Of a stretch of 64,000 nucleotides of DNA, positions 989-22,045 are shown one piece after another. Every line of letters begins with the position of its first letter. Position 1 is the stretch's first letter. This DNA comes from Streptomyces mobaraensis. GTDB lineage: Bacteria > Actinomycetota > Actinomycetes > Streptomycetales > Streptomycetaceae. Under the pieces are notes generated by a model that saw only the letters and a list, made by a program, of their open reading frames with translations, had not been told where the DNA came from and did no database searches. Location of the stretch: positions 930,001 to 994,000 of the forward strand of contig NZ_CP083590.1 in the NCBI RefSeq assembly GCF_020099395.1, given 5' to 3'. A program made the translations under genes and the position numbers.

Positions 989-3900
989 TCAGCCGGCCCC
1001 CCACCTCGCCTCCAGGGCCGCGATCGCCGCCTCGTCCAGGGTGACCAGCGGGAAGTCGGAGGGCGTGTGCCCGCCCGCGTCCGGCCGGTCGAGGCGGGCG
1101 GCGAGGTGTTCCAGGGCCTCCCGCCAGGCCGCCACGTCCGGGACGTCCGGGGCTTCGGCGGTGCGGTGGACGGTCAGCGTCAGACCGCCGTCCGGGGCCG
1201 TCCCTTCCACGTGAAGGTGGAGCGGACCGTGTGGCGGGACGGGCGGGGGCGCCGGCCACTCGTCGGCGGGAGCGGGCGCCCAGTCGCCCGTCCCGGCCGG
1301 CGGGCGGTGGACGGACGTCCAGTGCGCGTCCGGGGCGTCCGCCGCGCCCGGCCCGGTGCGCAGCAGCTCCTTGACCCGCTTGAGCAGCACGTCGTCACCG
1401 CCCGGCCGGTGCGGCCCCGGCGGCAGCCGGACGGCGACGTCCCGCCCGAACGGGCCGACGGTGGCGGTGAACGGCCCCCGTTCGGCGCGCACGACGCCCA
1501 CCGCCAGGCCGGGCGAGGCGAGGGCGAGGCCGGTGAGGAGCACGTCGTCCAGGCTCGCGTGGAAGCGGGCCGCGACGCGGGCGAGGGCCGCGGCGAGCTC
1601 GGGCGGGGCCAGTTCGGCCGTCGTGGCGACGGTCGCGGGCGTGCCGGTGCCCGCGGCTCCGGCGCTCGCGGCCCCGGCGCTCGTCTGAGCGAGCGCCCAG
1701 GCCGCGAACGGCGCCGGTTCCGGGTCGAGTTCACCGCCCCCGGCGGCGGTGGCGAGATCGGCGGCGAGGAGGCGGACGGACTCCTCGTCCGCGGCCGCCG
1801 GATGCACGGTGAGCAGCAACCGGCCCTGGTCGCGCGGGCCGCGGTCCCACCAGAGGGCGTCGAGGAGGACGCCGCGCTCCGGCGCGAGCCGGTCCTGGGC
1901 GGCGGCAGCCTCGGCGGTGAGGTCAGGCCGCTCGCCGGTGATCCGGGTCGGCACGGCGGCGGGGTGCGGGGTGCCCGGAGCGGCGGGGCCGGGAGCGGCG
2001 GGGCCCGGCCCGTCGGACGGCAGACCGGAGCCCGCGCCGGCGGAGTGCGACGTGCCCGGAGCGGCAGGGCGCAGCCCGTCGGGCGTGAGGGTAGAGCGGA
2101 GGGTGGGGTGCCGGTCGACGACGGCGGTCAGGGCGGCGGTGAGGCGTTCCGCGGTCAGGGCGGCGGGGGTGCGCAGGAGGAGGGTGTGCGGGGGTGTGCC
2201 GTCGGCGGCCCGGCGGTGCGCGAGCGGGGGCAGGGGGATGGTGGGCCGGTCGTCGTTCCCGGGGCGTGCCGCGGCCGCGGCCAGGGCCTCGACCGTCTGG
2301 TGGCGGAAGACGTCCCAGGGTGAGATCGGCAGTCCGGCGGCGGTGGCGCGGCCGGCGAGCTGGACGGCGACGATGCTGTCGCCGCCCAGGGCGAAGAAGC
2401 TGTCCCTGACGCCGACGTCGGGCAGTCCGAGGACCTGCGCGAACAGGCCCGCGAGCCGTTCCTCCGCCGGCGTCGCGGGCCGGTCCCCGCCGGTCCGGGC
2501 CGCGAAGTCGGGGGCCGGCAGGGCGCGGCGGTCGACCTTGCCGTTGGGGGTCAGGGGCAGCGCGTCGAGCGGAACGACGGCGGCCGGGACCAGGTGGTCG
2601 GGGAGCAGTCCGCGCAGGTGCTCGCGGAGCGCGTCGGGGTCGGCGGACGCTCCGGGGGCGGGTATCACGTACGCCACCAACTGGCGCCCTGCCACCGGGT
2701 GTTCGTGGACCGTGGCCACCGCCTCGGCGACGTCCGGACGGCCGGCGGTGAGCGCGGCCTCGATCTCGGCCGGCTCGACGCGGAAGCCGCGGATCTTCAC
2801 CTGGTGGTCGGTCCGGCCCAGGTACTCCAGGCGGCCGTCGGCGCGGGCCCTGACCAGGTCGCCGGTGCGGTACATCCGGGTGCCGGGCGGCCCGTAGGGA
2901 TCGGCGACGAAGCGGGCGGCCGTTGGCCCGGGGCGGCGCAGGTAGCCGCGGGCGAGTCCGGCGCCCGCGAGGTACAACTCCCCCGCGCTGCCGGGCGGGA
3001 CGGGTTGCAGGTCCGCGTCCAGGACGTAGGCGGCGGTGTTCCACAGCGGCCGGCCGACGACCGGGTCGGCGTCCGTGACGTCGGCGTACAGGCTGTCGGC
3101 GCTGACCTCGGAGGACCCGTACAGGTTGAGCAGCCGGGCGTCCGGGAACGCGGCGGCGAACGCGCGGGCCGTCTCGGGGCGCAGCGCCTCGCCGCTGCTG
3201 ACCCAGGTGTCGACGCCGGCGAACAGGTCGCGTTCGGCGGGCGGCAGGGCGGTGACGGCGGCCAGCAGGCTGGGGACGACGGTGAGGCGGGTGGCCCGGT
3301 GCTCGTGGACGAGGGCGGCCAGCTCGGGCAGGCTGCGGGCGGCGATCCGGTCGGCGAGGACGACCGTTCCGCCGTGCAGCAGCGGCCCGAGGAGCTCGCC
3401 GGTCCCGTCGACGAAGCTCAGCGACGTCTTGGCGCAGACGCGGGTGCCGGGCCGCCACGGGTGCCGGTCGTGGAACCAGGCCAGCCGGTTGGCCAGCCCG
3501 CGGTGGACGCCGACGACGCCCTTGGGCGCGCCGGTGGAGCCCGAGGTGTAGATGACGTAGGCGGCCCCCAGGGGATCGACGCGGGGTCGGGGCCCGGCCG
3601 GGTCGCGGTCGGGCAGGGCGGCGAGTTCGGCGCGTACGGCCGGGTCGTCGAGGACGAGGGGGGTGCCGGGGCCGTCGCCGGGCAGGGCCACGTCGGAGGT
3701 GGTGACCAGCAGCGCCGGGCGGGCGTCGCGGCGGACGGCGGCGATGCGCTCGGCGGGGTAGTCGGGGTCCAGCGGCAGGTAGGCGGCGCCGGACTTCAGG
3801 ACGGCGAGGACGGCGGCGACCAGGTCGGCGGTGCGGTGCAGCGCGAGCGCGACGAGCGTCTCGGGGCCCGCGCCCCGGGCCGTGAGCAGCCGGGCCAGCC

Positions 3901-20981: not shown

Positions 20982-22045
20982 ACTCCCGTACCCCCGGCGC
21001 CCGGGTGCCCGTCCGCGGCCGGGTCCTCCGCCCCGGCGGCCGCCTCTCGGTCCGCTTCGACCCGCGCTCCCTCCTCGTCTGCGCGGCGCTGACGGCCGTG
21101 GCGCTGCTGGCGGCGCTGGCGCTGCTCGGCAGCGGCGACTACCCGCTGTCGGTCGCGGACGTCGCCCGTACGCTCATGGGCGACGGCAGCCCGGCCGACG
21201 AGGCGATCGTCAACGAACTCCGGCTGCCGCGCGGCCTGGCCGCCCTGCTCGTCGGCGCGGCCCTGGGTCTGGCCGGAGCGGTCTTCCAGAGCATCGCCCG
21301 CAACCCGCTGGGCAGCCCGGACGTCGTCGGGTTCGGCCAGGGCTCGGCCACCGGGGCGCTCTGTGTCATCGTCGTCCTGCACGGCGACAGCACCGCCGTC
21401 GCGGCCGGCGCGGTGGCCGGCGGCCTGCTCACCGGGGTGCTGGTGTACGCGCTCGCCTGGCGCCGCGGCGTCCACGGCTACCGGCTCGTGCTCGTTGGCA
21501 TCGGCACGGCCGCGGTGCTCACCGCCGGCAACGGATACCTGCTCACCGAGGCAGAGTTCAGCGACGCGCAGCGGGCCGTCATGTGGCTGACGGGCTCGCT
21601 CGACGGGCGGAGCTGGGACGAGGTGGGGCCGCTCGCGGTGGCCTGCGCCGTCCTGCTGCCGGTGGTCGCCGCGTACGGCCGCCGCCTCTCCACGATGGAA
21701 CTCGGCGACGACGCGGCGCACGCGCTCGGGGTGCCGGTGGAGCGGACCCGCCTGGTCCTGATGGCCGCCGCCACCCTCCTCACGGCCGCGGCCACGGCGG
21801 CCGCCGGCCCGATCGGCTTCGTCGCCCTCTCGGCCCCCCAACTCGCCCGCCGCCTCACCCGCTCCCCCGGCCCCCAACTCGCCCCGGCCGCCTGCATGGG
21901 CGCGGCCCTGCTGATCGGCGCCGACTGGGCCTCCCAACACCTTTTCGGCGCCGACCGTCTGCCGGTGGGTGCGGTGACGGGCGTCCTGGGCGGCGTGTAC
22001 CTGGTCTGGCTCCTGGTGACGGAACGCCGCGCGGGCCGGGTGTGA
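20978..22045 (+). CDS. FecCD-family iron-siderophore ABC transporter permease (second subunit)
   Basis: ~355 aa from a GTG at 20978 that overlaps the upstream stop; AAAGGTGG lies just before it. It carries ARNPLGSPDVVG and LGDDAAHALG, the FecD counterparts of the motifs in the first subunit. Together with the binding lipoprotein it makes an importer, but no ATP-binding subunit follows: the next gene is on the opposite strand and unrelated. The ATPase must be encoded elsewhere or shared with another siderophore importer. Confidence 0.94.
   Translation: MNSRTPGARVPVRGRVLRPGGRLSVRFDPRSLLVCAALTAVALLAALALLGSGDYPLSVADVARTLMGDGSPADEAIVNELRLPRGLAALLVGAALGLAGAVFQSIARNPLGSPDVVGFGQGSATGALCVIVVLHGDSTAVAAGAVAGGLLTGVLVYALAWRRGVHGYRLVLVGIGTAAVLTAGNGYLLTEAEFSDAQRAVMWLTGSLDGRSWDEVGPLAVACAVLLPVVAAYGRRLSTMELGDDAAHALGVPVERTRLVLMAAATLLTAAATAAAGPIGFVALSAPQLARRLTRSPGPQLAPAACMGAALLIGADWASQHLFGADRLPVGAVTGVLGGVYLVWLLVTERRAGRV

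Follow-up and report, generated by a model that had tools for sequence, protein, structure and literature searches.

A kasichelin-type siderophore cluster of Streptomyces mobaraensis that probably works with genes elsewhere on the chromosome

The left part of a 64,000-nucleotide stretch of the Streptomyces mobaraensis chromosome (the window; C1:930001-994000, inside a 7.64-Mb contig of a 7.67-Mb genome assembled in 2 contigs) carries what reads as a kasichelin-type siderophore cluster built on three nonribosomal peptide synthetases (NRPS), which probably works with genes elsewhere on the chromosome. No aryl-acid, ligase, MbtH, N-hydroxylase, thioesterase or ATPase gene was found in the window, as a sequence-only reading of this DNA had noted. 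That reading also had the starter supplied in trans, and this was borne out, as the only DHB-AMP ligase over cut-off in the genome belongs to a 2,3-dihydroxybenzoate (DHB) operon ~0.4 Mb away. The starter acid is most likely DHB, and 'catecholate' therefore fits better than the proposed 'phenolate-type'.

Gene content and absent genes

Gene starts were taken from an in-house gene caller and are approximate; the start of the aryl carrier protein (ArCP) gene was set from aligned upstream sequences. Domains are condensation (C), cyclization (Cy), adenylation (A), thiolation (T) and epimerization (E).

C1:925014-925604: LuxR regulator
C1:926932-927729: methyltransferase (MT)
C1:927729-929015: ATP-grasp protein
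989..5524 (start near 5524 inferred), minus strand: NRPS3 (KasE-like), C-A-T with a C-terminal E-like domain without motif
5517..10535, minus strand: NRPS2 (KasG-like), C-A-T-E followed by a low-complexity tail (Pfam)
5580..5940, minus strand: kasF deletion scar, repeat-rich and unmatched; an aldehyde dehydrogenase gene stands here in four relatives
10613..13945 (start approximate), minus strand: NRPS1 (KasH-like), Cy-A-T; Pfam match in frame 10613-14260
14495..14746, minus strand: stand-alone ArCP (KasI-like), 83 amino acids (aa); PP-binding 44.7 bits, frame 14495-14881
15300..16787, minus strand: MFS exporter (KasJ-like); MFS_1 170.5 bits
16873..17754, minus strand: ViuB-like siderophore-interacting reductase (KasK-like); SIP 135.3 and FAD_binding_9 113.6 bits (frame 16873-18039)
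18041..18652, plus strand: TetR-family regulator; TetR_N and TetR_C_1
18668..19684, minus strand: siderophore-binding lipoprotein; Peripla_BP_2 59.7 bits
19909..19927: IdeR/DmdR-type iron box, 2 mismatches to the consensus, between binding protein and permeases
20013..20981, plus strand: FecCD permease 1; FecCD 306.8 bits (frame 19932-20981)
20978..22045, plus strand: FecCD permease 2; FecCD 270.1 bits (frame 20027-22045); no ATPase gene follows

Each part of the earlier inventory (ArCP, Cy-A-T, C-A-T-E, C-A-T, MFS exporter, ViuB-like reductase, lipoprotein and two FecCD permeases) was recovered with Pfam and the translations, and the cluster runs on left of base 1 with the ATP-grasp, methyltransferase and LuxR genes. 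The Cy motif, the HHxxxD of NRPS2-E, the GGDS of the T domains and the condensation motifs are intact in the translations, by eye. In NRPS2, the Pfam matches are C-A-T and a second Condensation-family stretch, which is the E domain. The open frame 989-5965 (minus strand), which holds NRPS3, gave C-A-T followed by ~420 aa without a Pfam match; its E-like domain reads HPAAAD. Identities to the two closest relatives, S. huiliensis and Streptomyces sp. I05A-00742, were 88% and 82% for the C-A-T part of NRPS3, 92% and 86% for NRPS2, and 92% and 83% for NRPS1; the two closest named matches of the Cy-A-T gene were both from Streptomyces (89% and 82%). NRPS3 is likely the beta-amino-acid module. A reading of NRPS1 as a Cys/thiazoline module, guessed from specificity codes, was dropped because a Cys-like prediction is reported for the Thr module of the kas cluster (PMC12305651). 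With E. coli EntF as the reference for substrate codes, NRPS2 aligned poorly, and no code is claimed.

Chorismate-binding enzymes in the whole genome lie no nearer to the window than C1:636556 and C1:1351377. The DHB-ligase model gave 91 genome matches, those inside the window being the A-domains of its own NRPSs only. Queries with the MbtH, N-hydroxylase and thioesterase proteins of S. piniterrae gave no match in the window (tblastn, E 1e-3). Across the whole genome, six MbtH matches, four strong N-hydroxylase matches and 127 ATPase matches were found, all outside the window. The earlier reading had named two outcomes that would refute it, the missing genes just left of base 1 or a genome without an aryl-acid pathway; no chorismate-binding enzyme or DHB ligase was found in that flank, and the genome does hold such a pathway.

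Some observations concern the surroundings of the cluster. A gene pair left of LuxR (L007 11388-14481) is syntenic in both relatives, and its second gene has an ABC_membrane match below cut-off; the pair could encode an ABC exporter of this cluster. The TetR regulator is also found in the clusters of four relatives (53-94% identity, tblastn). Genes of an Mrp-type Na+/H+ antiporter (Proton_antipo_M, MnhB, MrpF) are located at 58214-61804 of the window. Rfam gave 0 matches at gathering scores, and a portion of the left flank, searched against plasmids, gave none.

Candidate functions encoded elsewhere in the genome

The DHB-AMP ligase over cut-off (C1:1349671-1351272) scored 764.7 bits against a cut-off of 723.55, the next of the 91 matches scored 222.7, and the model found no second high-scoring ligase in the S. 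mobaraensis genome. It is part of a dhbA-C-E-B operon (locus L010), and all four DHB steps (isochorismate synthase, isochorismatase, DHB dehydrogenase and DHB-AMP ligase) are encoded in the genome. DhbA, DhbC and DhbE exceed NCBIfam cut-offs; the 213-aa DhbB was assigned by Pfam Isochorismatase, with no NCBIfam cut-off reached. This isochorismatase carries no carrier domain, and a free ArCP is encoded in the window; none was found in the 19-kb L010, nor in the DHB loci fetched from S. huiliensis and I05A-00742. As the remote operon is the only DHB route found here, a catechol cap is expected. The genome has six chorismate-binding enzymes: DhbC and TrpE (over cut-off), a PabA-PabB fusion (over a PabB cut-off), one PabB-like protein, and two TrpE-clade-3-like proteins with an amidotransferase part, the last three all below NCBIfam cut-offs.

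After the DHB genes, L010 encodes a 1043-aa C-A protein (L010 3566-6697), a phosphopantetheinyl transferase (PPTase) and a methyltransferase; upstream are two genes of peptidase families. In the C-A protein, no T domain was matched and no TSGSTG motif is recognizable by eye, yet all three genomes keep the frame open across the stretch that aligns. A Cas3 gene (L010 16698-19001) stands just beyond the DHB locus. I05A-00742 and S. huiliensis hold a further aryl-acid locus (L080, L081) with salicylate-synthase-like, ligase, ArCP, dhbA-like and dhbB-like genes.

For the N-hydroxylase, the nearest candidate (C1:7362869-7363903) is 54% identical to the cis enzyme of S. piniterrae, and the other three strong matches are 31-33% identical; supply of this function in trans is plausible.

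The importer would likewise depend on an ATPase from outside. The genome has 13 FecCD matches, 12 of them strong, and five FecCD systems lie, as judged by position, next to an ATPase resembling E. coli FepC (38-60% identity). The window permeases and a pair at C1:7393574-7395597 have no such neighbor. At the window locus a FepBDGC-type set (binding protein, two permeases and cognate ATPase together) is incomplete, the ATPase being absent; the ATPase matches nearest the window (C1:922063-922803, 924321-924959, 995195-995794) are weak, at 24-42 bits. I05A-00742 has a FepC-type ATPase gene beside the orthologous permeases, at the spot where S. mobaraensis has none, and this protein is 85% identical to the S. 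mobaraensis ATPase C1:5910437-5911225. Next to the latter stand paralogues of the binding protein (52%) and of the permeases (70%, 66%), and the locus also has an iron box. The putative coupling-helix segments (GDD..A..LG) look alike, which is no proof of a shared ATPase. Sharing of C1:5910437-5911225 with the window permeases is plausible. The earlier claim of an energizing step in trans stood for the missing cis ATPase, and for the trans supply it gained a plausible candidate. No ATPase was found at the corresponding place in S. huiliensis, and the fetched 36 kb of S. piniterrae gave no FecCD match. The other FecCD pair with no FepC-like ATPase nearby (L079 7608-9616, ~C1:7393574-7395597) is neighbored by genes for NRPSs, MbtH and a siderophore-interacting protein. 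The binding protein occurs too widely to serve as a marker of the cluster, since 167 of 199 genomes in a genus search match it at E<=1e-60; among the matches listed, those besides the copy in the S. mobaraensis genome are at most 55% identical.

Iron boxes were scanned with an IdeR/DmdR-type consensus over 158,002 bases (window, flanks, L010 and L011). Two boxes with <=4 mismatches were found, one at 19909 and one ~30 bases before dhbA, and when the window was shuffled ten times by mononucleotides, no box appeared at <=4 mismatches and one at 5. The permease box likewise has 2 mismatches in L039 and L040, and the dhbA box is kept in 3 of 3 genomes compared. Boxes with <=4 mismatches were also found in other iron-uptake or siderophore loci of the genome (L114, L116, L117, L079). 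Upstream of the ArCP gene, at ~15055-15102, a block starting GTTATAT.CGTAAAGTA.TGTGACGTGG (minus strand) is conserved in four genomes (S. mobaraensis, S. huiliensis, I05A-00742 and S. piniterrae); it is possibly the NRPS promoter or operator.

With substrates and module order taken from the kas cluster (PMC12305651), the following route is proposed. DhbC, DhbB and DhbA would make DHB, which DhbE would activate for loading onto the window ArCP. NRPS1 would add Thr and cyclize it to an oxazoline, NRPS3 would add a beta-amino acid, and NRPS2 would add N-hydroxy-ornithine and epimerize it. Closure of the last residue to a lactam would give a catecholate kasichelin. For the kas cluster, KasF is assigned a likely role in providing the beta-amino acid (PMC12305651), and its loss here suggests that beta-alanine would come from general metabolism and that the product is probably the beta-alanine form. 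The MFS protein would export the siderophore, the lipoprotein and two permeases would import the iron complex with the ATPase shared from the paralogous importer, and the ViuB-like reductase would free the iron.

Relatives, gene losses and alternative readings

Nine of 14 loci (L039-L047, with L048-L052 left out) were compared by tblastn. Four have the same arrangement of three NRPSs, S. niveiscabiei (L041) has a different build, and the other four gave general NRPS, ligase, dehydrogenase or ATPase matches only. S. huiliensis and I05A-00742 are largely syntenic with the window cluster, in the order LuxR-MT-ATPgrasp-dihydrolase-NRPS3-aldehyde dehydrogenase-NRPS2 (in I05A-00742, ~5.6 kb separates LuxR from MT), and no aryl genes were seen in cis in the stretches fetched from them. 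S. piniterrae has in cis MbtH, N-hydroxylase, thioesterase, aldehyde dehydrogenase and a dihydrolase-like gene, together with a salicylate synthase (TIGR03494, 412.7 bits) and a DHB-ligase-model protein below cut-off. Longimycelium has dhbC, dhbE, ArCP, MbtH, N-hydroxylase, thioesterase and aldehyde dehydrogenase in cis. Set side by side, the genomes run stepwise from S. piniterrae and Longimycelium, with salicylate or DHB genes in cis, by way of I05A-00742, which still has its ATPase in cis, to S. mobaraensis, where siderophore genes seem to have moved elsewhere or to have given way to paralogues.

Two genes of the relatives' clusters are missing here. Where the relatives have the dihydrolase, between NRPS3 and ATP-grasp, a peptide deformylase gene is found at 1-843 of the window, and the dihydrolase place has therefore been taken by other DNA; the sole homologue elsewhere in the genome, among the matches listed, is at C1:5332753 (68%). 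At the aldehyde dehydrogenase site, the two flanks of 5580-5940 align with S. huiliensis (L039) in blastn (87%, 88%) and the stretch between is unmatched. This stretch gave a weak match (38%, E 2e-5) confined to the low-complexity end of the aldehyde dehydrogenase gene, and the best genome match to the relatives' enzyme is 33% over part of its length (46 bits). Tandem repeats of 15 bases (5 codons) and longer occupy 5591-5998, in the C-terminal tail of NRPS2 at this same site.

Ratios of nonsynonymous to synonymous substitution (dN/dS) were calculated against two relatives using a simple Nei-Gojobori script with no neutral control, and codons outside the tblastn alignments were dropped (for example, the NRPS3 tail against S. 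huiliensis used 206 of 416 codons). dN/dS was <=0.505 in 38 of 38 comparisons. It ran from 0.11 to 0.51 over the 24 comparisons of cluster genes and from 0.09 to 0.29 over the 8 of dhbA, B, C and E; the C-A protein gave 0.42 and 0.47, the PPTase 0.36 and 0.25, and the S9 peptidase 0.17 and 0.21. Such values argue against simple decay and are no proof of production.

These data bear on whether the locus is a decaying remnant that makes no siderophore, having progressively lost kasD, kasF, MbtH, N-hydroxylase, thioesterase and ATPase, which is improbable. The kasF scar, the missing kasD-like gene, the motif-less E-like domain of NRPS3 and the fuller versions in S. piniterrae and Longimycelium would fit such a history. 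However, the reading frames are open with their core motifs intact and the cluster genes have dN/dS values of 0.11-0.51; the E-like motif is also lost in S. huiliensis and S. piniterrae, and the Longimycelium NRPS3 counterpart is without the domain altogether; and the published kas cluster made its product despite an outside origin of its aryl acid (PMC12305651). That the missing genes reflect an assembly gap or contamination is hardly credible. The assembly is in 2 contigs, but its completeness is 99.9% with contamination of 0.96, the window lies inside the 7.64-Mb contig, and S. huiliensis likewise lacks the cis ATPase and both close relatives the cis aryl genes in their fetched stretches.

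Other readings concern the DHB operon. It is unlikely that the operon works chiefly with the neighboring NRPS toward a separate catecholate product and that the window cluster merely borrows DHB, as reported for megalochelin and qinichelin. The adjoining C-A protein, PPTase and two peptidase-family genes, and the C-A frame open in three genomes, are in keeping with this, but the C-A protein lacks a T-domain match and a recognizable TSGSTG, its dN/dS values contrast with the 0.09-0.29 of dhbA, B, C and E, and the DHB locus gave no ArCP. A starter of salicylate or another aryl acid in place of DHB is very improbable: kasichelins A and B bear a phenolate oxazoline (PMC12305651) and S. piniterrae has its cis salicylate synthase, but none of the six chorismate-binding enzymes of S. 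mobaraensis reaches the salicylate synthase cut-off (other routes, for instance through a 6-methylsalicylate synthase, were not searched).

Several points weigh against a working cluster of kasichelin type served by remote genes. No release enzyme was found; the thioesterase is absent from the window by tblastn, and no genome-wide search was made for it. The best N-hydroxylase candidate shares only 54% identity with its S. piniterrae counterpart. In front of the window NRPS operon the best iron box has 6 mismatches and none has 5 or fewer, and the Longimycelium cluster (L042, L078) also gave none within 5. The DHB locus could serve another product. Membership of the kas type was judged from gene content and synteny, not from Kas sequences, with the kas order read from the lettering. 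The kasD-like dihydrolase, present in both close relatives, was not found in the window, L007, L008 or L091, and the kasF-like aldehyde dehydrogenase, also present in both, is absent from the cluster. By NCBIfam, the dihydrolase of the relatives scores over cut-off as a dimethylargininase and below cut-off as an arginine dihydrolase, and their aldehyde dehydrogenase falls below every cut-off.

A stronger form of the favored reading, of a cluster working with remote genes, is possible but leans toward doubtful. The two half-clusters ~0.4 Mb apart may now be one obligate pathway, in which the DHB locus, having lost its carrier and a working NRPS, would be a mere feeder, and the NRPS locus, having lost aryl, hydroxylase, thioesterase, MbtH and ATPase genes, would rely on paralogous systems. 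If so, the kasF loss would have locked the product into the beta-alanine form. Genome mining that takes clusters one at a time would score this locus as incomplete and get its cap wrong. The forecast, open to test, is a catechol kasichelin that carries beta-alanine.

Comparison with known systems

The kas cluster of Streptomyces sp. K17/9 encodes PCP-Cy-A-PCP, C-A-PCP-E and C-A-PCP-E proteins (PCP, peptidyl carrier protein) and a stand-alone carrier, with no thioesterase domain, and uses Thr at KasH, beta-aminoisobutyrate or beta-alanine at KasE, and N-hydroxy-ornithine at KasG (PMC12305651). Its aryl acid is unexplained by the cluster; an origin in another cluster is the speculation of its authors, and K17/9 is said to hold a salicylate synthase and DHB-AMP ligase in another cluster (PMC12305651). 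Cloned kas DNA gave kasichelin A in S. coelicolor (PMC12305651), which suggests that this host can supply the functions the cluster lacks. Hydroxylase, monooxygenase and MbtH are not mentioned in the main text (PMC12305651).

The window and its left flank have the same three-NRPS layout with a stand-alone carrier, although the third, E-like domain is without its motif here, and the LuxR, methyltransferase, ATP-grasp, MFS and ViuB-like genes correspond by family, not by Kas sequence identity. The relatives' order is that of kasA to kasG, followed by Cy-A-T, PCP, MFS and ViuB, if the kas lettering follows gene order. KasC is likened to argininosuccinate lyase (PMC12305651), and the ATP-grasp protein scored 136 bits, below cut-off, against the argininosuccinate-lyase model. 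An aryl acid whose origin the cluster leaves unexplained and the lack of a thioesterase domain are common to both (PMC12305651), whereas kasD (arginine dihydrolase) and kasF (aldehyde dehydrogenase) are missing in S. mobaraensis, and the salicylate synthase reported for K17/9 contrasts with a DHB operon and no salicylate synthase found here. The comparison with known oxazoline siderophore clusters, which the sequence-only reading had proposed, agreed in kasichelin-type content and differed in kasD and kasF. Among the matches listed in a literature search on S. mobaraensis oxazoline siderophores, there was no second report of this cluster.

Cahuitamycin is also an aryl-oxazoline NRPS siderophore with a beta-Ala step, one congener of which takes its starter from an unlinked locus; its main cluster, in contrast, has its own salicylate synthase and ligase, and the unlinked gene encodes a 6-methylsalicylate synthase (PMC4757757). 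In griseobactin producers, the DhbB isochorismatase and DhbG aryl carrier are separate genes in Streptomyces (PMC12210187), whereas the carrier here is in another locus ~0.4 Mb off and not beside the isochorismatase. For megalochelin, DHB is reported to be supplied in trans, and the same is cited for qinichelin; as here, the Streptomyces genome encodes the DHB cassette in a cluster other than that of the siderophore (PMC10127220). Those are other NRPS lines with a cassette said to be tied to an enterobactin-type cluster (PMC10127220), whereas the NRPS neighboring the DHB operon here looks catalytically lost. In S. aureus, FhuC energizes several importers without their own ATPase (PMC10147376); such importers are common to both, with use of the remote ATPase tested there and inferred here. 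The 'unusually split design' of the earlier reading was therefore not upheld: the published kasichelin and megalochelin clusters show the same split, S. aureus FhuC is a shared ATPase, and the design is a known arrangement in related bacteria, of which this locus is a kasichelin-type member.

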